A DNA stretch of 64,000 nt, from positions 2,294,001 through 2,358,000 of the forward strand of contig NZ_CP009454.1 of NCBI RefSeq assembly GCF_000759475.1, read 5' to 3'. The notes under the pieces were generated by a model. It had not been told where the DNA came from, did no database searches, and worked only from the letters and a program-made list of their open reading frames with translations. Source of the DNA: Pantoea rwandensis (lineage in GTDB: Bacteria > Pseudomonadota > Gammaproteobacteria > Enterobacterales > Enterobacteriaceae). Below are positions 50,043-63,562 of the stretch, piece by piece (position 1 is the stretch's first letter; each line of letters opens with the position of its first letter). Both the position numbers and the translations under genes were made by a program.

Positions 50043-51359
50043 TTAAGATCTTAATGGAGGCCGCAACGGATAACGTTGCGGCTTCTTTTTTACCGCCCTT
50101 GGGTAATGCCGCACTCTTCTTTCCGGCAGCACCAGCCCTGGCGCCATCGCCATTATCTCTTCCATTATCCGCGGTATTTTTCCCGGTGAGATGCCCGGTA
50201 GCAGGCTCAGATGACTTCTCAGATACAGTGCGGACTGCTTAAAACTCATCTGATAAGGTTCCACGCCTTTCAGGCTGTACGCCATCTGCGCCATCATGAA
50301 CCTCAGAAGGTTATAGGCCAGGACCACGCCCCACAGCTCCTGACGCACAAGTTCTGGCTTTTTGCTTCTCAGCGTCAGCTCATTATTCAGCAGGTGTTGT
50401 TTCATCTCGCGGAACCCATGCTCTATTTCCCAGCGATGGCCGTATAAATCCACGACATCTGCTTTGGGATACCTCAGGGGGTCGCACATGGATGTCAGGA
50501 TTTGAACCGTTTTTCCGTTGAGTTCTTTGCTGATAAGCCTTGCCGTCAGCGTGTCCGCAGCACCCTGCCATTTTTTCTTCGCCTGCGGCGACAGCTGTAA
50601 TTCCACCAACGCCTGCCCGGCCCCTAAGCTACGGATTACACGGTACTGTGCTCCTTTGCGCAGCGGCAGCATCCAGTGTCTTTCCGTTCCCGCTGACTGC
50701 CAGGCGTGCAGCAGACCCAGCGCATAAAAACCTTTATCAAAGAGGGTCAGAGAGTGGTCGGGGGTCTGTGGGATAAGCTGAGCGGCAAGATCGGCTTCGC
50801 CGACAGCTGAGACGCTGTCGAACGCTGCTGCTGACAGCAGGTGACTGGTGACTTCCATCTGACAGACCATTCGCACCTGCGGCCACTCAGAGCACTTATT
50901 AATATTGGCCGTTCGCCCGAAGGCGGCATCATTCTCTGGTGTGTCAGGGGTACGCCATACGGTGCCATCCACCGCCATCAGAGTCAGTCCGTTCCAGTGC
51001 GACAACGGTGTCTTTTCAAACCACAGGCGCTGCGTTTTCTCAAACATTAATCGGATAACATCTTCGCCAAATCGCTGCCGGGCCTGCACAACCGCGCTGG
51101 GCGCAACAAAGGGCCTTTTTCCCGGCAGAAGAATATCCAGGTGAGAGACGAGCTGAGTCATCGAATGGGAGCGAAAAAGTGCCATGCCGGTCACTGCCCA
51201 GACCATCATTTCCATCGATAACCGGCGCTTTCGTAACGTTACTGTCCCGGTATCCGCGAGACACTCGTCAATAAGTTCAGGAGAAAGGAGATCAGAAAGC
51301 GTCGAGAACTCCTGAGGAGTAAAGTTATGAACAATATCGAGAGCCTGACTGAGAAGCAT
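50043..51359 (-). CDS. IS4-family transposase (copy 2)
   Basis: A 438-residue DDE transposase nearly identical to copy 1. Visible differences include MEEIMAM for MEEVMAM, SAVGEAD for SAAGEAD and QYRVIRS for QYRIVRS, plus silent changes. All catalytic motifs ([31 protein letters not shown]) are intact, so this copy too should be active in principle. Confidence 0.96.
50060..50091 (+). terminator. IS-borne terminator facing inward from the left end (copy 2)
   Basis: The same GCCGCAACG / CGTTGCGGC stem and T tract as copy 1. It would terminate kdsA-operon transcription 67 bases after the kdsA stop, replacing the disrupted terminator. Confidence 0.88.
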
Positions 51360-51495: not shown

Positions 51496-52587
51496 CTACA
51501 ACATAATTGTCAGTAAATAGCCGGCGAACAGTGCCAGATGCGCGGCGCCGTTCAGCACATTGGTACGCCCGGTTGAGAACGAAATATGGCACAAAATCAG
51601 CGCGGCACTCATGATCACCATATGTGGTGGCTCAAGACCAAATATCAGCTGCTGACCGGTCAGGGTAGCGATGATGCTCACCGCCGGCACCGTCAGGGAG
51701 ATGGTGGCTAATACCGAACCAAAGAACAGGTTCATCGCGCGCTGTACCTGGTTCATTAACACCGCTTTGATTGCCCCTAACCCCTCCGGCGACAGAATCA
51801 GCAACGCCACCAGGAAACCGGTGAACTGCTCAGGTGCATTGAGTTCTGTCAGCAGATGCTCCAGCGTGTTGGCGTTCATCTTGGTCACGCTGATCACGGC
51901 GATCAGATGAATGATCAACCATACCGTGTGCCACAGTGAGCTATGCGCGGAAGGTTTACCGTGATGCGGGTCGCCATCGTCACCGTCATCCTCATGCTCA
52001 TAAACAAACAGGCTCTGATGTGTTTTGGTCTGAATCAGCAGGAAAACGCCGTACATCGCAGCGGAGATCGCGGCAATGATCAGCGCCTGAGCCGTGGTGA
52101 AGTTACCGCCTGGCAGCGCATTCGGAAACACCAGCACCAGAATCGCCAGCGGGAAGATGGCAATCATGTACTGCTTTACGCCCGCCAGATTGACATATTG
52201 GGTGGCGAATTTGCGTCCGCCGAGCAGCAGCGCAAAGCCCACCAGACCGCCGGTCACAATCATGATGATGGAGTAGAGCGTGTCGCGCATTAGCGCGGGT
52301 GCGGCATCACCGGTGGCCATCAAGGCGGAGATCAAACTGACCTCCAGAATCACTACGGAGAGGCTCAAAATCAGCGAGCCATAGGGTTCACCCAGGCGGT
52401 GTGCCAGCACGTCAGCATGACGTACCACGCTGAAAGCACTGCAAAGGATGGCGACCAGCGCCAACAGGTTGATGCCGATAACCGGCAATAATGCCGTCTG
52501 ACCGCCAAAGAAGCTCAGCACCGTCAGCGCGACAATCGGGAAAATCAGTGAGTACTCGGTATGTCGGGTTTTCTCATGTGTAGCCAT
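51496..52587 (-). CDS. chaA: Calcium/sodium:proton antiporter ChaA
   Basis: A 363-residue CaCA-type antiporter with about eleven hydrophobic helices and the two acidic repeats (SLSVVILEVSLISALM and LLILSPEGLGAIKAVL), plus an acid/His loop EHEDDGDDGDPHH. It exports Na+, Ca2+ or K+ at high pH. It is divergent from chaB, as in E. coli. The E. coli ldr toxin genes normally between kdsA and chaA are absent here. Confidence 0.96.
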   Translation of the reverse strand: MATHEKTRHTEYSLIFPIVALTVLSFFGGQTALLPVIGINLLALVAILCSAFSVVRHADVLAHRLGEPYGSLILSLSVVILEVSLISALMATGDAAPALMRDTLYSIIMIVTGGLVGFALLLGGRKFATQYVNLAGVKQYMIAIFPLAILVLVFPNALPGGNFTTAQALIIAAISAAMYGVFLLIQTKTHQSLFVYEHEDDGDDGDPHHGKPSAHSSLWHTVWLIIHLIAVISVTKMNANTLEHLLTELNAPEQFTGFLVALLILSPEGLGAIKAVLMNQVQRAMNLFFGSVLATISLTVPAVSIIATLTGQQLIFGLEPPHMVIMSAALILCHISFSTGRTNVLNGAAHLALFAGYLLTIML

Positions 52588-54093: not shown

Positions 54094-55512
54094 CTACGGT
54101 TTACCCGGATTAATCAGCCAGGTTCCGGGCTTGTCGATGGTCAGTGATTGGCTCATTACCTGGCTGCCATTTTGCACTTCAATTCGATAACTTCCCGCCG
54201 CCAGATTGAGTGAAGCAAAGCCACTGCTGGTGGGTTTCACATCCTTCGCTTCGCCGTTGAGCAGCACTTTCTCGCCCTCCTGCAAGCGCAGATAGACGGT
54301 TGCCATACCTGGCGCGCTGGCTGCTGCACTCTGACTCGCCACCGGCGCTGAGGCAGAAGGGGTCGCGGCTATCGGAGCGGTTTCACTGTGGCGATTGGTT
54401 TTCCACACCACCACCACCACGGCCAGAATGGCAATGGCAGCGGCGGCGACCAGACCAGGCGAAAGGCGACGCACGTTGCGTGGCGTGACAGGTTCAATCG
54501 CCGCCGCTGCATGATTCACCGCCATCACCTGCGGTTCAGGCACCGGCACTACGGCGACGGGTTCAGGCGTTGGGGCTTCCACGGCGACAGGGAAGGTGGT
54601 GACCAGGGCTTCAACATCACTCACCGGCAAATCGATCAGGCTGGCAAACGCATCAATGCTCTGCGGACGGTCACCGGGTTTCATTGCCAGCGCACAGTCG
54701 ATGGCATGCAGTAGCGGCAGCGAATAGCCGGCTGGCTTGCGTTCAACCAAGGGTTGATAGTTATCCTCGATGCAGCGCACCACGCTGACAGGCGGCGCGT
54801 GGCCGGTAATCAGATTGTGCAGCACCGCGCCTAGCGCATAGATATCGGTCCAGGGGCCTTGCTCTACCTCACCTTCTTCGCTGTATTGCTCAATCGGGGC
54901 AAAGCCGGGCTTCAGCATGATTTCGGTTTCATCAGAGAGATTGCCGATCTCCTTACGGGCTGAACCAAAATCAAGTAACACCGGCAGCTGATTTTCCTGG
55001 ATTTGGATGTTATCCAGCGAAATATCACGGTGCAGATAACCGGCGGTATGGATGGTGTTAATTGCGCCAAACAGCGGCGGTAACAGCCGACGAATCCAGG
55101 ACTCATCGATACTGTCCGGGCTGGTCACCTGCCACTCTTTTAATGTCATCCCGCTGTAGTAGAGTGTGCCCATGTAGGCGGTGCCGTTCTCTTCCCAGAA
55201 GCGCAACACGTGCAGCAGGCCGGGATGATTGAAGCGTGCCAGCAGGCGCGCTTCCTGAATAAAGCTGTTTCGTCCGGCATTGAACAGTTTCTGGAAACGT
55301 TCGCCGCGCAACTCCAGTGACAGATCCGCGGCACGTACTGCCAGCGAGACGGGCATGTACTCTTTGATGGCGATGGTGCGTTCCAGCTGATGGTCCCAGG
55401 CACGGTAAACAATGCCAAAGCCGCCGCCGCCAATCACTTCCTTGATTTCAAATTCATTAAACCGGTAACCCGCAGGCAGGGCATTCGGTGTGTGGTTTTC
55501 GTTTGCCGACAT
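54094..55512 (-). CDS. T6SS-associated Ser/Thr protein kinase (PpkA-like)
   Basis: A 472-residue membrane kinase. Kinase domain 20-290: GGGGFG (28-33), Lys50, HRD (161-163) with Asn168, DFG (181-183). A proline/valine-rich linker leads to one transmembrane helix (about 353-370), then a periplasmic part ending in a PEGA-like beta domain (404-472). In the threonine phosphorylation pathway of T6SSs, PpkA phosphorylates the FHA protein to activate secretion. Here it is the last gene of an eight-gene operon that also encodes the phosphatase and FHA partners. ATG 55512 is chosen over an in-frame start at 55530. Confidence 0.88.
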   Translation of the reverse strand: MSANENHTPNALPAGYRFNEFEIKEVIGGGGFGIVYRAWDHQLERTIAIKEYMPVSLAVRAADLSLELRGERFQKLFNAGRNSFIQEARLLARFNHPGLLHVLRFWEENGTAYMGTLYYSGMTLKEWQVTSPDSIDESWIRRLLPPLFGAINTIHTAGYLHRDISLDNIQIQENQLPVLLDFGSARKEIGNLSDETEIMLKPGFAPIEQYSEEGEVEQGPWTDIYALGAVLHNLITGHAPPVSVVRCIEDNYQPLVERKPAGYSLPLLHAIDCALAMKPGDRPQSIDAFASLIDLPVSDVEALVTTFPVAVEAPTPEPVAVVPVPEPQVMAVNHAAAAIEPVTPRNVRRLSPGLVAAAAIAILAVVVVVWKTNRHSETAPIAATPSASAPVASQSAAASAPGMATVYLRLQEGEKVLLNGEAKDVKPTSSGFASLNLAAGSYRIEVQNGSQVMSQSLTIDKPGTWLINPGKP

Positions 55513-55577
55513 AGTGAACTCTCTGAACACGTCCTGTAGCGCCTGTCAGTCTGTCGACGTCAGGCGACGACCGCTAA

Positions 55578-56528
55578 TTAATTAATGTTACGCCAGGCAC
55601 CAATCGCCGGATCGGCAAGATCCGCATGCAGGGTGTCAATCAGTAACACAGTCACTTTTTGCTGTGGCATAAACTGCGACGACCAGGCGCCGCGTAAAGT
55701 TTCAACCCGGCTCTTCACCGCATCACTGTCCTGTCCTGCTGTCTTATCCATTTTAATCAGCAGGTTGCCAGTGAATCGCCATACATGTTGCTGGCTGTCG
55801 AACGGCAGCACTAGCCAGCTATCTTCGGCATCCGGACGCGCCACAATCATGCGCTGTTTGTTCACTGCCACCACTTCCAGTGCCGGGCCGCTGAGTTTCA
55901 GATTGGCAATGGGATAGCCCTGATAGAAATTCACCGCCAGCGAGCGCGTTTTATCTCCGCTCATCAGTGTTAACTCACTGGGGCCTTCCAGCCAGCCTTC
56001 CGTGGAGCAGTGCTGTTGTGGGTTATCCGGAATAAACAGCGAGTCGCCGTTTTCGTCCCAGGAGGTGCGGAAATGGCAACCTGCGGGTAAAGCGAAGTGT
56101 TGCAAAGGGCTGTTATCTGCCGGTCGCGAGAGATCCAGCGGGGCGGCATTGCTGGCACTGGCGCTGGCGGTGGCATCGTTGATCACGATTGGCCGCCAGT
56201 TCTGCAGTTTTGCTGCGCTGCCATTGGCCAGTACGCTGCCGTCTTTATTGGTCATCTGCCATGGGATTTCGTCCAGCGTGCCGCATTGATTCGCCAGCAG
56301 TGTGCCAACGCGTGGCAGGAAGCTGGTCAGAATGCTGGAATCGGTGCTTTTGCCGGAAACAATACGCAACGGCAAGGTCTCTTTGCACCAGTCGTTGGGT
56401 GAATTGCTGGCTACATTATCGATATAGACTTCAAGCGACAGACTCGGCGAATAGACCACGCGATAATCATCAGCTTGCGCATTTAGAGCCAGCAACAGGG
56501 TCGCTAAGCCCGGCAACCACACTTTCAT
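55578..56528 (-). CDS. Exported protein of unknown function in the T6SS-like operon
   Basis: A 316-residue protein with a signal peptide (MKVWLPGLATLLLALNAQA) and no other membrane segment, so probably periplasmic. I do not recognise a domain; several Cys (in NDWCKE, NQCGT, AGCHF and QQHCST) could form disulfides. ATG 56528 has AAGGA in place; TTG 56546 is upstream in frame. It lies between the phosphatase and kinase genes, so it may be the periplasmic sensor or ligand partner of the kinase PEGA domain, comparable in position to TagQ/TagR-type factors, but with no visible homology. Confidence 0.75.
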   Translation of the reverse strand: MKVWLPGLATLLLALNAQADDYRVVYSPSLSLEVYIDNVASNSPNDWCKETLPLRIVSGKSTDSSILTSFLPRVGTLLANQCGTLDEIPWQMTNKDGSVLANGSAAKLQNWRPIVINDATASASASNAAPLDLSRPADNSPLQHFALPAGCHFRTSWDENGDSLFIPDNPQQHCSTEGWLEGPSELTLMSGDKTRSLAVNFYQGYPIANLKLSGPALEVVAVNKQRMIVARPDAEDSWLVLPFDSQQHVWRFTGNLLIKMDKTAGQDSDAVKSRVETLRGAWSSQFMPQQKVTVLLIDTLHADLADPAIGAWRNIN

Positions 56529-56542
56529 AAGGGTCCTTGGGA

Positions 56543-57319
56543 TCAATAACGTGTCGGCAGAAAACGTGCCGCATCAGCCTGGGAATAAAGCAGCGTCGCT
56601 TCCTGCGGTTCGCCAATCCAGATGGCCAGAGCGCTGAGATTGTCGCTTTTTACACTGCGGTTAACGGCTTGTTCCATCAAAGTCAGCCACTCTTCGCAGG
56701 CATTGACCATGCGCAGGGCTTGTTCCATCTCGTGAGTGGTCAGATTGAGCCAGAACCCGTCCGTGCAGACGAGAAACGCATCGCCATCCGTTAAGGGAAT
56801 CACTTCACTAAAGGTGGCGGGACGTGCAGGCTCAACGCCGAGCGCATTATAGAGTAAATTACTGTTAATTCCGGTATTTTCATAGCCTGCTTCCCGCAGC
56901 TGCTGGGCCAGACTATGGTCACGTGTCACCTGACTCAACACCCCATGACGGAAGTGATAAACCCGGCTGTCACCTGCATGCGCCCACCATGCGCGCTGTG
57001 TCTCGCGGTCAATAAACAGCGCGGCCAGCGTGGTGCTCATGCGTGCATATTTCGGATTTTTTCCCTGCGCCTCAAGCAACACCTGCTGACAGTGCTCAAT
57101 CGCTGCGCGTGTGCTTTCGGGCGTGAACGTCGGATTGTTGTGTAACTGTGTCAGCAGCGTATCCCGCACGATTTGCGCCGCTTTATCACCGCCAGGCAGA
57201 CCGGCCACGCCATCGCAAACCAGAAAGCAGGCTTTGCGCTCATCCAGCTCGGCCCCGGTGCGATCCTGGTTTTCATCGCGCATTCCCTGCTGGCAACGGC
57301 TGGCAAACATCATTTTCAT
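56543..57319 (-). CDS. T6SS-associated PP2C phosphatase (PppA-like)
   Basis: A 258-residue PP2C-type phosphatase: GMRDENQDR, VCDGVAGLPGGDKA, AHAGDSRVYHF, VCTDGFW and VKSDNLSALAIWI supply the metal-binding Asp residues. In T6SS signalling PppA reverses PpkA phosphorylation of the FHA protein. Its ATG overlaps the FHA gene stop. Confidence 0.91.
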   Translation of the reverse strand: MKMMFASRCQQGMRDENQDRTGAELDERKACFLVCDGVAGLPGGDKAAQIVRDTLLTQLHNNPTFTPESTRAAIEHCQQVLLEAQGKNPKYARMSTTLAALFIDRETQRAWWAHAGDSRVYHFRHGVLSQVTRDHSLAQQLREAGYENTGINSNLLYNALGVEPARPATFSEVIPLTDGDAFLVCTDGFWLNLTTHEMEQALRMVNACEEWLTLMEQAVNRSVKSDNLSALAIWIGEPQEATLLYSQADAARFLPTRY

Positions 57320-58431
57320 GCGTCTTCGGTCCGAGTCTGGGAATCTTTATATTGATTCACTTCCATGTCATACGCATGCAGGAAGGCTTCACCAAACAGG
57401 GTATGGAAGTCATCTTCAATTTCACCGGCAGTGCGCTGGTAGTGGCGTGAAAAGTAATCCCACAAGGCCGCTTTACGCCCGCCGTTAAACGGTAGCTTAG
57501 GCAACACGCCATCTTTACGTGCTTCCTCTTCCAGCCGTTGCGGATTGAAGGATTGCAGCATCGCCGCGATGATCGCGCGGATGCCCGCAATCATCCCCAA
57601 CTGATGCGCCTGCAAATCCACCAGTGCATCGCGCACTGCCGCTTCTGGCGGCATGAAACCGGGCATCTGACTCTGATAAATCTGCATCAATACCGTTTTA
57701 CCCGAAGGCAAAATTTTAAACGGATTATTCGCCTCATTGAGGATCATCGTCATGTCGGCTTTCACGCCGCGTTTGAGGATCGAACGGGAAGAGAGCAGGG
57801 CAACAGTGCCTTGCGAGAACAGGCTCAGCATACGGCCCGTCACGCGCATCTGCTCTTCGGTGATTGTCGTGTGATGGCCATTATTCAACCCCATGCCTTC
57901 CAATAGCGCGGCCAGCAGCTTGTCTTGATCGGCTTGCGGCAGCGTGGCGGGAGCCGAAGGGGCATCACTTTGTGGGTCAATACCCAGGCGTGGATCAGTA
58001 CGGCGCTCCGGACGCGCCGCAGTGGATTCCGGCACCACGTCGAATGCCTGCTGCATACCGAGTGGATCGGCCGCACTGTCCGCGAAGAACGTGAGCGGGT
58101 CATCCTGCTGGGTGCTCTGGCAGGCAGGATCGCGCACCTCAAGGCCATAATCGCCGATTTGCAGTGCATCACCATGCTGTAATTGCACTTGTGAACCGCG
58201 CTGTAGCGCCACGCCGTTCAATACCACTGAGGTCACACTGCCCTGATTGGTCAGACGGCACTCACCTTCCGGGGAGATATGCACCAACGCCTGCAAGCGT
58301 GAAATGGCGCGCGATTCGTCAGGCAGTACCAGATCGTTATCCTGACTGCGGCCAATGGTTCCCCCAGGCGGTTTAAAAGCAACCGTCTTTGCTGGCACAT
58401 CCGTATTGCACTGCACAATGGTAAATTGCAT
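57316..58431 (-). CDS. T6SS-associated FHA-domain protein (TagH/Fha-like)
   Basis: A 371-residue protein with an N-terminal FHA domain (1-100; GGTIGRSQDNDLVLPD, ISRLQALVHI, NGVALQRG) that binds phosphothreonine, a variable linker, and the C-terminal TagH-type domain (about 190-360; NEANNPFKILPSG, LVDLQAHQLGMIAGIRAIIAAML). It should be the substrate and effector of the kinase/phosphatase pair. Confidence 0.9.
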   Translation of the reverse strand: MQFTIVQCNTDVPAKTVAFKPPGGTIGRSQDNDLVLPDESRAISRLQALVHISPEGECRLTNQGSVTSVVLNGVALQRGSQVQLQHGDALQIGDYGLEVRDPACQSTQQDDPLTFFADSAADPLGMQQAFDVVPESTAARPERRTDPRLGIDPQSDAPSAPATLPQADQDKLLAALLEGMGLNNGHHTTITEEQMRVTGRMLSLFSQGTVALLSSRSILKRGVKADMTMILNEANNPFKILPSGKTVLMQIYQSQMPGFMPPEAAVRDALVDLQAHQLGMIAGIRAIIAAMLQSFNPQRLEEEARKDGVLPKLPFNGGRKAALWDYFSRHYQRTAGEIEDDFHTLFGEAFLHAYDMEVNQYKDSQTRTEDA

Positions 58432-58464
58432 GAGTCATCCTGTTAACAAGGCAAACGCTGCGGC

Positions 58465-59163
58465 TCATTCAAACATGGGTGGATAGAGGCCGTTGCGTCC
58501 CGGCTGTGCACCTGCCGCCGGGTTAAACAGTAACGCAAAAAGTTGCGCGGTGAGCGGCCCACTGTGTTTATGTGTGGCGTGGGCAAAACCGTCACTGCGA
58601 TTACTCCACCAGTAGCTAATGTGCTGCTGGGGATCAAATTTATCCGCCACTTCACGCCAGCTCAGCGTACAGGGCAGATCATCAAAACCAATCACATCCA
58701 TAATATCGCTGCGCTGATTATCCGGGACCACCAGCGGCGTCACGCGTTGCATCTGCTGCTCCAGCGCATCGGGGTTCAGCCGGTCACGCACGCCGCGCAG
58801 TAGCAGCGTGCCCAGCTCCTGAAACCAGTCGCCCGACATGGCCAGCTGAGCGCTGTGCCAGTGGCTGAGCGGAAAACTTCGCAAGGCCAGCAGCGGCCAA
58901 CTGCGCCCTACGCGATCGCACGAGGGCATCAGGCAGCCCATCTGCACCTGCTGACGCAGCGGCGACAGCGGCAGAACAAAATTCCAGACAGGTGCGCGCA
59001 GAAACAGCTGAGTGGAGGCATCGGGTTGCTGATGCCAGTGCATGAGCCCCTGTTGAAACCAATGGCTCCAGGGCGTCACGGTATTCTCACTCAGGCGCTG
59101 GCGCAGGAAATCGCCGGTGGCCGGCAATTTGCCGTACCAACCCGGCGCGGTGTGCGTCGCCAT
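58465..59163 (-). CDS. tagF: T6SS-associated protein TagF
   Basis: A 232-residue TagF-type protein: APGWYGKLPATGDFLRQRL at the N terminus, PVWNFVLPLSPL, GCLMPSCDRVGRSWPLLA. TagF is a negative post-translational regulator of T6SS. ATG 59163 has GAGG placed well; an in-frame start at 59184 is less likely. It follows tssM by 13 bases. Confidence 0.9.
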   Translation of the reverse strand: MATHTAPGWYGKLPATGDFLRQRLSENTVTPWSHWFQQGLMHWHQQPDASTQLFLRAPVWNFVLPLSPLRQQVQMGCLMPSCDRVGRSWPLLALRSFPLSHWHSAQLAMSGDWFQELGTLLLRGVRDRLNPDALEQQMQRVTPLVVPDNQRSDIMDVIGFDDLPCTLSWREVADKFDPQQHISYWWSNRSDGFAHATHKHSGPLTAQLFALLFNPAAGAQPGRNGLYPPMFE

Positions 59164-59176
59164 GGTTACCTCACCA

Positions 59177-61291
59177 TTACTCACTGTGTCCGGTCAATCG
59201 CTGCGAAGCCCGCTGTGGTGCAATCGCCAGCGAACTGCCATTCGCACCAGCAATTTTCAGATTTTCCGCAAGCTTGCGCATCATTAGTGCGTTATCTCGC
59301 GCATAAGGTGACGACTGAATCTGCTGATCCAGAAGCTGGCTAAGATGCCAGTCAAGCTGCTGCAAATCCCGGGCGCTGACATCATCTGGCAGATTGCGTT
59401 GAAGATTCTGCATCAGCCAGGCACGCAGGAATTCGCCGTCATAATTGCGCGGCTGATACAACATCTGATAGGCACGCAGCGCATTGCGGCTGTATTCATT
59501 GTCGTTACCGGGATCATCACGCAGCAAATTGGTGATTTGCTGGGCCACGCGCGGTAACAGCAGAGACTTAAGCGCATTTTGATAAAGCACCCATGCCGCA
59601 TCGCTTACCTGGTTGCCACGATACAGACCCGCGCGCATGCTAAGCGGTGGATTGTCGAGGGAAAAGCGCTCCGACAAAGGCAACTTCACCAGGTTATTTA
59701 AGAAGGGTAGCAGATCAAAGATATTATCGGCTGGCTGATGAATCACCTGCTGACTCTGACGAGTCATCGGCTCAATACGCGCGGCGACCTGGTTAAGATA
59801 TTGCTGGTTCTGGAAATAGCTGGCCAGCCATAAACCGGAGAGCAAGAGCAGTGCACCGGTCAGCGCACCGTAGCCAATCCAGTGAAACAGGCGGTTGCGG
59901 TATTCCCAGTGGCGGTTGCTGCCCGCCAGGCCACTTTCGCGGAACACCAGATCGCTCAGCAGGTCACGGATAAAGAAGCTCTGGCCTTTGTTGCCAGGGA
60001 TGGGATTATTACGAGTCACGCTATCCCAGGTTGCGAAGCGACTCTCACCGGTGTGCGGCAACTGCAGCTTACGGTTGAGTTCGCCCATGATGCGGTCAAA
60101 CGGTAAGCCTTCCTGTGTGCCGCTGGTAAAGAATAAGCCGCGCGCTGACCAGGCAATCTCATCCTCATGGCGCGAGAACACCACATCAAGGTACTCATTC
60201 AGCAGCGGGCGCAGGGAGCTGAACTCCTGTGGAAACAGGAAACAGTCCGCACGTAGGGTGAGATCGCGTTCGTTTGCCATCACCATCGGCAGTTGCTGCT
60301 TTAGGCGCTGTTCTAGATGCTGATATTGCAGGCTAAAACTGGTATGCCAGTCATCTTTGTGCGGTTTGCCGGGTTCCCATGGGAAGGTGAATCCCCAAAT
60401 GGCGTCGCGCTGTGGTTTGCTCAAGCCTTCGTGGAAGCTTAAAAAACCTTTCAGCAGATCGGTCTTGGTCACCATCACATACACCGGGAAATGAATACCG
60501 GTTTGCTGATACAACTCCTGCATCCGGCTTCGCAACGCGCTGGCCTGCGCATGACGCGCCTCCGCGGAATCGGTGAGCAGGTCAGCCACGCTGATGGTCA
60601 TGATCACGCCGTTGATTGGCTGGCGTGTGCGATAGCGTTTCAGCAGGTTAATGAAACTCTGCCACTCGGCGCCGTCGCGTGCACGCTGGCTCTCCTGCAG
60701 GGCATATCGCCCTGCGGTATCGATCATCACCGCGCTGTCGGTAAACCACCAGTCACAGTGCCGCGTGCCGCCGACGCCGCGAATCGCCGCTTTGCCAAGG
60801 CTATCGGTCAGCGGAAACTCCAGTCCGGCATTGAGCAGGGCGGTAGTTTTCCCTGCGCCGGGCGCCCCAATCATGACATACCAGGGCAGTTGGTAGAGAT
60901 AGTGGCTCTGAAAACGTGCCAGCCAGTTCTGTTGATGACGACGACCAAACTGTGTGCGTTTCAGGCGCAATGCGGCTTCGCTGAAGCGCTGAGCCAGCAG
61001 CGCATCAGTGGCCTGACGATCGGACAGCTCTTCGTGACTCATCTCCTGCAAACGGTTGAGGAGTTTACTGTTAAACCAGCCACGCCAGATCGCCGGGATA
61101 AACTGGAACAGCACCCAGCAAAAGAACAGCAAACCGACCAGGAGTTGACGAGGAAAAACCGGCTCAAGCGGACGGGTATCTCCCCAACTCCACAACGGGC
61201 CGAGCATCCACAGCACACAGCTTAAGGCGGTGACACCAATCAGGCTCCACAATAGGCGGTGGGTTAACAGATGTTGCAGCGATGCGCGCAT
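59177..61291 (-). CDS. tssM: T6SS inner-membrane protein TssM (IcmF), short form lacking the C-terminal half
   Basis: About 704 residues, where full TssM has 1100-1200. Two N-terminal helices (about 13-35 and 49-69), the NTPase with Walker A GAPGAGKTT (142-150), GVGGTRHCDWWFTDSAVMIDTAGRY, VMVTKTDLL and LFFTSGTQEGLPFDR, a third helix (about 473-493), then only about 210 periplasmic residues (GLYRGNQVSDAAW, NALRAYQMLYQP). The IcmF C-terminal part that in other systems binds TssJ is missing. There is no degenerate remnant: the frame stops cleanly 13 bases before tagF. Start ATG 61291 overlaps the tssL stop. Confidence 0.9.
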   Translation of the reverse strand: MRASLQHLLTHRLLWSLIGVTALSCVLWMLGPLWSWGDTRPLEPVFPRQLLVGLLFFCWVLFQFIPAIWRGWFNSKLLNRLQEMSHEELSDRQATDALLAQRFSEAALRLKRTQFGRRHQQNWLARFQSHYLYQLPWYVMIGAPGAGKTTALLNAGLEFPLTDSLGKAAIRGVGGTRHCDWWFTDSAVMIDTAGRYALQESQRARDGAEWQSFINLLKRYRTRQPINGVIMTISVADLLTDSAEARHAQASALRSRMQELYQQTGIHFPVYVMVTKTDLLKGFLSFHEGLSKPQRDAIWGFTFPWEPGKPHKDDWHTSFSLQYQHLEQRLKQQLPMVMANERDLTLRADCFLFPQEFSSLRPLLNEYLDVVFSRHEDEIAWSARGLFFTSGTQEGLPFDRIMGELNRKLQLPHTGESRFATWDSVTRNNPIPGNKGQSFFIRDLLSDLVFRESGLAGSNRHWEYRNRLFHWIGYGALTGALLLLSGLWLASYFQNQQYLNQVAARIEPMTRQSQQVIHQPADNIFDLLPFLNNLVKLPLSERFSLDNPPLSMRAGLYRGNQVSDAAWVLYQNALKSLLLPRVAQQITNLLRDDPGNDNEYSRNALRAYQMLYQPRNYDGEFLRAWLMQNLQRNLPDDVSARDLQQLDWHLSQLLDQQIQSSPYARDNALMMRKLAENLKIAGANGSSLAIAPQRASQRLTGHSE

Positions 61292-62505
61292 CACTCACCT
61301 CCTGGATGATTGCCGAGGGTTTCCGGTGCGGCAAACAGGGTGATCTCCACACGCCGGTTGCGCGCGCGGTTTTCATTGCTGTCATTGGGCAGCAACGGAT
61401 TACTGTCGCCGCGGCCTTCCGCTTTCACACTGTGCCCTTCAGCCAGTTGCGGATTCAGTAATTGGGTCACGGCGCGTGCGCGCGCAAAGGAAAATTCATA
61501 GCTTGAGGCAAAACGCCCATCCACCGGGCTGTTATCGGTGTACACCGACACCAATACCGTTCCTTTAACGGTTTTCATGGCGCTGGCAACGTGTGCCAGC
61601 AGCGCGCGACCGACCTGATTGACCACGGTACCGTCCGGGGAGAAGAGTTTATCGGCGGGAATGATCACCTTACTGCCAAATGCGCCATCGCTGACTTCCA
61701 GTTGACCGGCGGCGATCACATCATTCAAACGCTGATGCAAATCCAGCAACGCCTGTGGAGAGGTAGGTCGACGGCCAGGCATAATTTGTGGCAGCGGAGT
61801 TTGATAGATGGCGCGCAGCAGCGGCTCGGCCGCATTGCCCAGCCGCCAGTTCAGGCCGCTGTAAATCAGGCAGGCAATCAGGGCCGCTAGCATCGCACAG
61901 GCCCATAACGGCACCATCGGACGGGTTAAGCGACTGACCAGAGGATGCACTTCCACCAGTGGCGCGGCCGGGTTAGCGGTCGACGGGCGTGTTTCCTGGA
62001 TCAGTTGAGCGAGACGTTTACGAATCCCTTCACATTGTGCACGGCCGTTATCGCTACCGCGATAACGGCCTTCATAACCCAGCAGCAGACAGTAATGGAT
62101 CAGCTCCAGCAACCACAGGTGTTGCTGCGGGCTTTGCGAGACGCGGGAAAGCAGCTGAAATACTTTTTCGCCGCCCCAGCTTTCATTATGGAAAGTGACC
62201 AGCATGCCGTTCCCTGACCACACACCCCGCGTACCCCACGGGGTTTGCGCGGCGGCTTCATCCAGTACGCTGCATAAGCAGTAGCGTGCACCAATAATCA
62301 TCTCAAACGGCAAACCGGCTTGCTTACAACGATATTCGAATTGGCGGATCTCTTCAATCAGTAACTGACGTAAACCGGCGGGATCGTCATGCGTAGCAGC
62401 CTGCCGTATACGGACAACGGCATTCAATATCGGTGCTGCGGCATTAAGCAAAAGGTTATCGTTGCCCGCGACAATGCCATCGCGGACAACAGAATCCTGG
62501 GTCAT
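61291..62505 (-). CDS. tssL: T6SS protein TssL (DotU) fused to an OmpA-type peptidoglycan-binding domain
   Basis: A 404-residue protein. DotU domain about 10-210 (NDNLLLNAAAPILNAVVRIR, FEMIIGARYCLCSVLDEAAAQTPWG, YEGRYRGSDNG), one transmembrane helix (LWACAMLAALIACLIY), then a periplasmic OmpA-like domain (VYTDNSPVDGRFASSYEFSFARA, NRARNRRVEITLFA) that should bind peptidoglycan. It partners TssM. ATG 62505 is preferred over an upstream in-frame codon at 62571. Confidence 0.93.
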   Translation of the reverse strand: MTQDSVVRDGIVAGNDNLLLNAAAPILNAVVRIRQAATHDDPAGLRQLLIEEIRQFEYRCKQAGLPFEMIIGARYCLCSVLDEAAAQTPWGTRGVWSGNGMLVTFHNESWGGEKVFQLLSRVSQSPQQHLWLLELIHYCLLLGYEGRYRGSDNGRAQCEGIRKRLAQLIQETRPSTANPAAPLVEVHPLVSRLTRPMVPLWACAMLAALIACLIYSGLNWRLGNAAEPLLRAIYQTPLPQIMPGRRPTSPQALLDLHQRLNDVIAAGQLEVSDGAFGSKVIIPADKLFSPDGTVVNQVGRALLAHVASAMKTVKGTVLVSVYTDNSPVDGRFASSYEFSFARARAVTQLLNPQLAEGHSVKAEGRGDSNPLLPNDSNENRARNRRVEITLFAAPETLGNHPGGE

Positions 62506-62590
62506 TAAATATCTTTTTTCCTGGCAATGGCGCCAGGGAGCGTCCACAGAGTGCGACCTTGCTGTGAACAATCTGCGCCATATTGCATTA

Positions 62591-63082
62591 TCAGTCTAGG
62601 ATCCAGGTCGCGGTATCGTTGGTGCGGCAAGCCTTGCTGGCACCGCCAACGGCCACGCAGACCTGTTTAGTACGGCGGGGACGTGGACGGTCGCTACGCA
62701 CGGTGGCGTCATAACGGCTACTTTCAACCCCGGCTTTCGGCGGGATGTAACCAATCAGCTGTCCATTGGGTTCATCGGCAACGGCTAACCAACTGTGGTC
62801 GACACGTCCCAGTACTTCAAACGGTTTCGCGTTATCGAGATAACGAACAACCTTGCCGCCATAATCAGGCGTGGTCATCACCGACGCCGCATAGAGTGCG
62901 CGGAAACTCCCATTAACCGGCGTGAATTCGCCTGGCGCTGCCACCGCATGACGGTGGACTAGCTTGACGCCATTGACCTCACTGGTGACCAGGGTGTCAT
63001 CAGTCATCGGCGGTGGTGGCGCTTTACAACCCGCCAACGTCAATACTGCCAGCAGAGTGAGCAACAGACTCTTATTCACCAT
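62591..63082 (-). CDS. SH3-like-domain lipoprotein heading the T6SS-like operon
   Basis: A 163-residue lipoprotein: lipobox LAG before Cys19, then a segment resembling a bacterial SH3 fold (FRALYAASVMTTPDYGG, KPFEVLGRVDHSWLAVADEPNGQLIGYIPP) and a C-terminal tail with two Cys (QVCVAVGGASKACR). ATG 63082 has GAGG upstream; TTG 63091 is less likely. It is the first gene of the operon, where classical clusters supply the lipoprotein TssJ; it has no TssJ-like sequence that I can see. Confidence 0.78.
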   Translation of the reverse strand: MVNKSLLLTLLAVLTLAGCKAPPPPMTDDTLVTSEVNGVKLVHRHAVAAPGEFTPVNGSFRALYAASVMTTPDYGGKVVRYLDNAKPFEVLGRVDHSWLAVADEPNGQLIGYIPPKAGVESSRYDATVRSDRPRPRRTKQVCVAVGGASKACRTNDTATWILD

Positions 63083-63562
63083 GAACCTCAAATTTCATCA
63101 GATTAGCTGCAGATTAATATGTGGCACACGCATCTAAGGCGGGCAGAGTATGCAGCGGGAAAGCCATCAAAAAACAGTCAGATTACAGAAAGATAGTGCT
63201 GTGTTCAGTCTACCTAAGACTTTTGAGAATTCAATCCATTGCATAGCGAGAAAGCCCGTGCTATCGGGCGGAAATAGCGCATATCAGGGTGATAAAAAAC
63301 CTGTGCCTTTAGTGATAGATAAGCTGAGTTTACTTATTTAGTCGTGTAAGCGTGTGACGCAGGCGATAAAGCCGAAGAGCTGCAGAAAGATGTCTCGAAA
63401 TTGATAAATGATCTTAATCTTTTCTTAAGGTTGAAAAAAGATTGCGCAGGTAAACAATTTTCTTACTTTCGGAATTTCCGCGCGCATTTCCGCCAGTGCT
63501 AAAGCCAGTCCGGCACGGCTTTTGCTTAAAATCGTTATGTCTATTTTGCGCGAGAAAACGTG
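63083..63562. other. Divergent control region of the T6SS-like operon and nasR
   Basis: 480 bases without a supported gene. It is A+T-rich near 63400-63470. A short dyad GCCCG (63254-63258) / CGGGC (63265-63269) is present. Promoters for both sides must lie here, but none is clear enough to place. Confidence 0.5.

Follow-up and report, generated by a model that had tools for sequence, protein, structure and literature searches.

A tail-less, eight-gene type VI secretion-derived cassette of Pantoea rwandensis is conserved under selection across related genera

The closest described relative of the locus analysed here is an eight-gene partial type VI secretion system (T6SS) of Pantoea and Erwinia, named T6SS-2 by De Maayer 2011 (PMC3235180) and PA T6SS-3 by Shyntum 2014 (PMC3942780). 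The passages cited describe eight syntenous genes of approximately 9 kb, with icmF and dotU as the sole core genes and a mean identity of 52% to the T6SS-1 paralogues, found in every one of the eight sequenced P. ananatis as well as in other Pantoea and in E. billingiae (PMC3235180, PMC3942780). Both papers regarded it as potentially non-functional. Shyntum 2014 suggested a single transcriptional unit under strong selective pressure and left the role open (PMC3942780). When this locus was deleted in P. ananatis LMG 2665, pathogenicity on onion and the inhibition of competitors both stayed unchanged, as stated in the passage cited (PMC9837560). Further reduced loci were described in E. amylovora, E. 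pyrifoliae, and E. tasmaniensis (PMC3235180); the four-gene T6SS-2 of E. amylovora and E. pyrifoliae has lost the kinase and phosphatase (PMC3235180, PMC5561584), which E. amylovora carries in its T6SS-1 and lacks in its T6SS-3 (PMC5561584). In the threonine phosphorylation pathway of Serratia marcescens, RtkS stabilises PpkA, phosphorylated Fha overcomes TagF, and TagF blocks assembly of the membrane complex (PMC6082577), and TagV has been described to support firing without TssJ (PMC7614798). Here, we describe a minus-strand cassette at 54094-63091 of a 64,000-nucleotide stretch of Pantoea rwandensis (contig NZ_CP009454.1, positions 2,294,001 to 2,358,000; hereafter the window), which encodes, in order, a TagV-like lipoprotein, TssL-OmpA, TssM, TagF, Fha, PppA, an RtkS-type protein, and PpkA.

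The cassette adjoins chaC, and tssL and a truncated tssM were its only core genes out of the 13 expected in a functional T6SS locus. With its fixed eight-gene order and length of about 9 kb, it showed no apparent structural difference from T6SS-2/PA T6SS-3 as described in the cited passages, and the locus itself is already published. The assignment of RtkS and TagV, the uniform truncation of TssM, the colinear comparison with T6SS-1, the upstream element, the carriers that have no T6SS, the wider range of genera, and the comparison of constraint are added here. The preliminary description had read the locus as an eight-gene minus-strand T6SS-derived operon, and this was borne out, its exported protein proving to be of RtkS type and its SH3-like lipoprotein TagV-like. 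The latter label was chosen since the match to NCBIfam NF041850 scored 195.5 bits, under the family cut-off of 300. The regulators are the same as those of S. marcescens (PpkA, PppA, Fha, TagF, and RtkS, plus TagV), which serve a complete T6SS there, whereas the cassette has no adjoining tail genes (PMC6082577, PMC7614798; passages cited).

The P. rwandensis genome, a single contig of 4.33 Mb, contained a single TssK and one further TssM (1209 amino acids). These belong to T6SS-1, at approximately 2143–2171 kb and about 177 kb from the cassette, in which TssA to TssM all scored above the family cut-offs (13 core genes). T6SS-1 also held its own paralogue of each of the eight cassette genes in the same relative order. 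The order of T6SS-1 could be read as tagV-J-K-L-M-tagF-A-B-C-hcp-fha-pppA-rtkS-E-F-G-H-ppkA-vgrG, with a few further frames left out, and the cassette corresponds to this order minus J-K, A-B-C-hcp, E-F-G-H, and vgrG. Identity to the T6SS-1 copy was 44% for TagV, 55% for TssL, 53% for TssM, 51% for TagF, 50% for PppA, and 37% for RtkS, and reached 74% in the kinase part of PpkA and 75% in the Fha C-terminal domain (Fha_C), with most other aligned stretches at 37–55%, in line with the published value of about 52%. The cassette TssM lacks the last ~500 amino acids of T6SS-1 TssM, and the family model TIGR03348 aligned to it only up to position 630 of 1168. The last ~500 residues of TssM form the TssJ-binding part; this C-terminal periplasmic domain and TssJ were both absent from the cassette, a protein search for TssJ giving no match in 73 homologous loci. 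The cassette Fha retains Fha_C but lacks the long linker of the 615-amino-acid T6SS-1 Fha. In S. marcescens, the phosphorylated threonine of Fha is Thr438.

The missing genes, the TssM end, and the Fha linker, whose absence is itself evident by comparison, were probably lost from a T6SS-1-type cluster. In all of the 73 loci except G044, where the gene is broken, TssM was truncated after one and the same conserved motif (72/73). When eleven T6SS-1 core proteins were searched against the 73 loci, none was found inside any cassette, and therefore no examined relative keeps the missing genes in place. The sole match of that search was an Hcp-like gene (37% identity to T6SS-1 Hcp) at 646-1116 of locus L101 (genome G281), just past chaC. 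The preliminary claim that no other tss gene is present thus held against these proteins, and neither situation that it had named as damaging was encountered: sister loci did not contain the missing core genes, and T6SS-1, owning a copy of every cassette gene, is not a system deprived of tssL, tssM, or phospho-regulators. A tree, rooted at the midpoint only, was built from the TssM proteins of 24 cassettes and 12 T6SS-1 clusters; a branch with 100/100 support separated the two sets, and the cassette has a single origin.

The distribution was evaluated in 61 genomes of the genus in the sense of GTDB. The short TssM was present in 58, and the three genomes without it were 1.4–2.9 Mb in size. Of the 58 loci, 48 had all eight genes open at a coverage of at least 85%; three further loci were cut by contig ends (G010, G011, and G054) and seven carried lesions (G009, G021, G025, G033, G044, G053, and G060). 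The breaks in G009, G021, G033, and G060 resembled frameshifts, and as chaC was broken too in G021 and G033, assembly error is possible in those two. A stop codon interrupted tssM in G025, and the locus of G044 was decayed. In G053 (L088), tagV was reduced to a 23-residue match, while the upstream element was intact and the other seven genes were open. In a sample of 392 genomes of the family, the short TssM was found in at least 20 genomes from eight genera among the matches listed. All eight genes were present in 14 of the 15 listed carriers outside the genus (G146 lacks tagV), and chaC likewise in 14 (absent in G179). The carriers are Pantoea and related bacteria that live in association with plants and insects; those with names belong, among others, to Pantoea, Mixta, Erwinia, and Izhakiella. 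Among 19 named loci with short TssM, a set in which some assemblies recur and which leaves out L189, cut by a contig end, 17 matched all eight genes and all 19 had chaC. One of the loci, L135, is that of P. ananatis LMG 2665, with matches for all eight genes and chaC, and L134 has a stop in tssM. The gene-order search suggested in the preliminary description found the eight genes in a single order and next to chaC in different genera. L138 (Erwinia piriflorinigrans) retains only tssL, the short tssM, and tagF ahead of chaC, the signalling genes being lost and the membrane genes kept.

The ratio of nonsynonymous to synonymous substitution (dN/dS) ranged from 0.010 to 0.190 for the cassette genes (Nei-Gojobori, 21 genome pairs; 165 of 168 values computable, some with dS > 1). 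Residues chosen by motif were counted in 67–72 aligned loci with the window counted once. All 10 PpkA kinase residues tested were invariant in 67/67 loci. In PppA, D19, D36, D117, D134, and D187 occurred in 70/70 and D226 in 68/70, and the Walker A residues K149 and T150 of TssM were kept in 71/71. The OmpA domain of TssL had R407 in 70/70 and D346 in 69/70 loci. The lipobox C22, the SH3b residue W101, and the C145–C155 cysteine pair of the TagV-like protein were found in 70/70; W100, C145, and C155 of TagV are named in the cited passage of PMC7614798. In 72/72 loci, and equally in T6SS-1 Fha, the usual FHA histidine position was Q; N62 was variable (N in 63/72). By motif, the cassette would encode the catalytic PpkA and PppA and the FHA domain of a threonine phosphorylation module.

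Ahead of the cassette, a 39-bp conserved element holding two short inverted repeats was located 113–138 bp before tagV in most loci. It matched the consensus with five mismatches or fewer in 66/73 loci and with 11 or fewer in 71/73, whereas 200 shuffled stretches gave nothing closer than 18 mismatches. A 20-mer of the element had one site per genome, at the cassette, in 4/4 genomes searched.

Selection on this tail-less T6SS-derived module is well supported, as the preliminary description had proposed from its open frames. The kept active sites, the low dN/dS, and the conserved upstream element argue that the cassette is not a simple relic. A functionless, slowly decaying partial duplicate, the published "potentially non-functional" view, would agree with the lack of a reported phenotype and with the real reduction seen in L138, in G044, and in E. 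amylovora, E. pyrifoliae, and E. tasmaniensis (PMC3235180, passages cited); however, it was already disfavoured by the dN/dS of 0.01–0.19, the 48/58 intact loci, the catalytic residues, and an upstream element kept across genera, and we consider it very unlikely. Since 2011, the literature has listed the locus as a partial T6SS that perhaps does not function (PMC3235180, passages cited), and the present data argue against a simple relic.

The reading which we favour over help to a resident T6SS, a decoy, and a relic, with a confidence that falls just short of an even chance, is that the cassette is the domesticated part of a T6SS-1-type cluster, without the tail, and forms a phospho-regulated envelope complex and no longer a secretion machine. 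Both partners of its RtkS-PpkA pair match the solved complex 9k1u. PpkA consists of a kinase domain resembling the PpkA structure 5hnv (E 1.3e-150), one hydrophobic segment (357-375), and a tail taken as periplasmic, of which residues 409-476 match the kinase chain of 9k1u (E 6.4e-15). The RtkS C-terminal domain matches RtkS of 9k1u in fold and sequence and is predicted to bind the periplasmic domain of PpkA. The remaining genes may represent a receptor-controlled envelope complex, in which RtkS would sense a periplasmic signal and hold or activate PpkA, PpkA would phosphorylate Fha, and phosphorylated Fha would relieve TagF. TssL-TssM could then assemble in the inner membrane, where the OmpA domain would tie it to peptidoglycan and TagV might link it to the outer membrane, and the circuit would be reset by PppA. 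Since no baseplate or tail genes lie beside the cassette and TssM lacks its TssJ-binding part, the complex, once assembled in the envelope, would itself be the output, serving for anchoring, sensing, or local control of the cell wall and not for injection; the intact competitor inhibition of the LMG 2665 deletion (PMC9837560, passage cited) was counted for this reading. More tentatively, and with somewhat less confidence, the lineage around Pantoea and Erwinia may have turned the T6SS base and switch into an autonomous receptor complex of the envelope that is gated by a signal, has a regulated promoter of its own, and works in the periplasm instead of injecting. If true, TssL-TssM function would be separable from the contractile tail, and such a tail-free function would bear on the evolution of T6SS membrane complexes. 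The RtkS-PpkA pair with its solved homologue, the locus-specific upstream element, and the T6SS-less carriers provide handles for testing.

Dependence on a T6SS was evaluated within the genus, where TssK was missing in 11 and VipB in 10 of the 61 genomes. After G011 was dropped (TssF present), the T6SS-less set comprised G004, G008, G022, G025, G030, G041, G043, G044, G053, and G054, all ten of which lacked TssF. Leftovers were a VipB fragment and one Hcp in G004, five Hcps in G022, two in G044, an Hcp fragment in G053, and Hcp pieces in G030 and G041. Among the six with a readable cassette, it was intact in three (G004, G008, and G022), which have no usable T6SS, and 19 of 26 cassette genomes in which no T6SS-1-like TssM was detected kept all eight genes. 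Seven relative-rate comparisons involving five T6SS-less genomes revealed no significantly faster protein evolution than in their sisters (p 0.07–1).

Several observations weigh against the envelope-complex reading. Lesions occurred in 3/6 T6SS-less loci against 4/49 with a T6SS (Fisher p 0.022, kinship ignored), and when three genomes without the locus were added, 3/9 T6SS-less genomes were intact against 45/49 (p 0.0004, kinship ignored). Two of the seven rate comparisons leaned to the T6SS-less branch (29 vs 19 and 38 vs 23 changes; p 0.19 and 0.07), and the highest dN/dS values (0.13–0.19, signalling genes) involved the T6SS-less G022 and G053. The VipB sheath gene was present in 15/15 carriers examined outside the genus. 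By domain, the PpkA kinase and Fha_C were approximately 73% identical to T6SS-1, with other domains at 36–58%, and thus cross-talk is possible. No published function or phenotype of the cassette was found in the literature searched, which lacked most subscription journals. Accordingly, the preliminary suggestion of independence from the tail stood in part: the full set of eight genes persists in three genomes that have no usable T6SS, but lesions were enriched in T6SS-less genomes and the sheath accompanied every outside carrier examined. The cassette is unlikely to depend strictly on T6SS-1, its full independence from a T6SS is unproven, and some link between the cassette and T6SS possession is suggested.

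The strongest alternative, possible though rated below the envelope complex, is that the cassette acts in trans, its PpkA/PppA/Fha/TagF or TssL-TssM tuning or hosting a complete resident T6SS, for example by providing phospho-regulation for clusters without it. Besides the lesions, the outside carriers, and the similar kinase and Fha_C, it would agree with the presence of the locus in all 51 sheath-positive genomes of the genus and with E. amylovora, whose T6SS-3 lacks the kinase and phosphatase of T6SS-1 (PMC5561584, passage cited). However, T6SS-1 itself carries a copy of each of the eight genes, the cassette persists where T6SS-1-like TssM or a usable T6SS is missing, competition and virulence of LMG 2665 were unchanged by the deletion (PMC9837560, passage cited), and the FHA domain and PppA evolved 2.4–2.6 times faster than in T6SS-1.

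These rates came from cassette/T6SS-1 distance ratios in the same six genomes (15 non-independent pairs; 6 for the kinase and 3 for the PpkA tail). PppA (2.36) and the FHA domain (2.55) had the highest ratios. The cytoplasmic parts of TssM (1.66) and TssL (1.88) were also faster than in T6SS-1, which loss of baseplate docking could explain. The periplasmic part of TssM equalled T6SS-1 (1.04), and the RtkS N-terminal domain evolved at half its speed (0.46; 0.34–0.60), which points to a conserved periplasmic input. Ratios were 1.09 for the PpkA kinase, 1.15 for TagF, 1.26 for the PpkA tail, 1.34 for the RtkS C-terminal domain, and 1.45 for Fha_C. Faster cytoplasmic parts of TssM and TssL, together with a TssM periplasmic part and an RtkS N-terminal domain that are not faster, are expected if docking was lost and periplasmic work kept, and this counts for the envelope complex. 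However, this simple picture does not fit all domains, as the TssL periplasmic part was faster (1.93) while TagF and the kinase were not, and this too counts against the envelope complex.

A dominant-negative or decoy brake, in which the short TssM, along with TssL, would be built into T6SS membrane complexes, blocking these and limiting T6SS assembly, would suit a TssM which lacks its C-terminal part and yet conserves three hydrophobic segments and the first periplasmic part, but it is very unlikely given the full signalling set and own upstream element, the 53% identity of TssM to T6SS-1 TssM, the retention in three genomes without a usable T6SS, and a deletion passage that mentions no gain in killing (PMC9837560).

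Table 1. Features of the cassette and its upstream region in the window (all on the minus strand)
Feature	Position	Strand	Remarks
ppkA, transmembrane Ser/Thr receptor kinase	54094..55530	-	478 amino acids; start GTG 55530 or ATG 55512
rtkS-type periplasmic regulator of PpkA	55578..56546	-	putative signal peptide; likely start ATG 56528
pppA, PP2C phosphatase	56543..57319	-	PF13672
fha/tagH, short form	57316..58431	-	FHA domain and T6SS_FHA_C; long linker absent
tagF, putative brake on membrane-complex assembly	58465..59184	-	51% identical to T6SS-1 TagF
tssM, truncated	59177..61294	-	705 amino acids, with Walker A retained and three hydrophobic segments
tssL with OmpA peptidoglycan-binding domain	61291..62571	-	likely start ATG 62505
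tagV-like lipoprotein	62591..63091	-	NF041850 match below cut-off; likely start ATG 63082
39-bp conserved upstream element, probable promoter/operator	63205..63243	-	113 bp ahead of the annotated tagV frame

Near chaC, the window also contained a frame resembling the chaA antiporter gene by eye (51496-52587, minus strand), and beside it a transposase-like frame of 438 amino acids, of IS4 kind by eye (50043-51359, minus strand). Elsewhere in the genome, two Hcp genes were located outside the T6SS-1 core (G000:C1:1529164-1529547 and 2184586-2184942), and frames that appeared Rhs-like by eye followed vgrG at approximately 2171–2183 kb.

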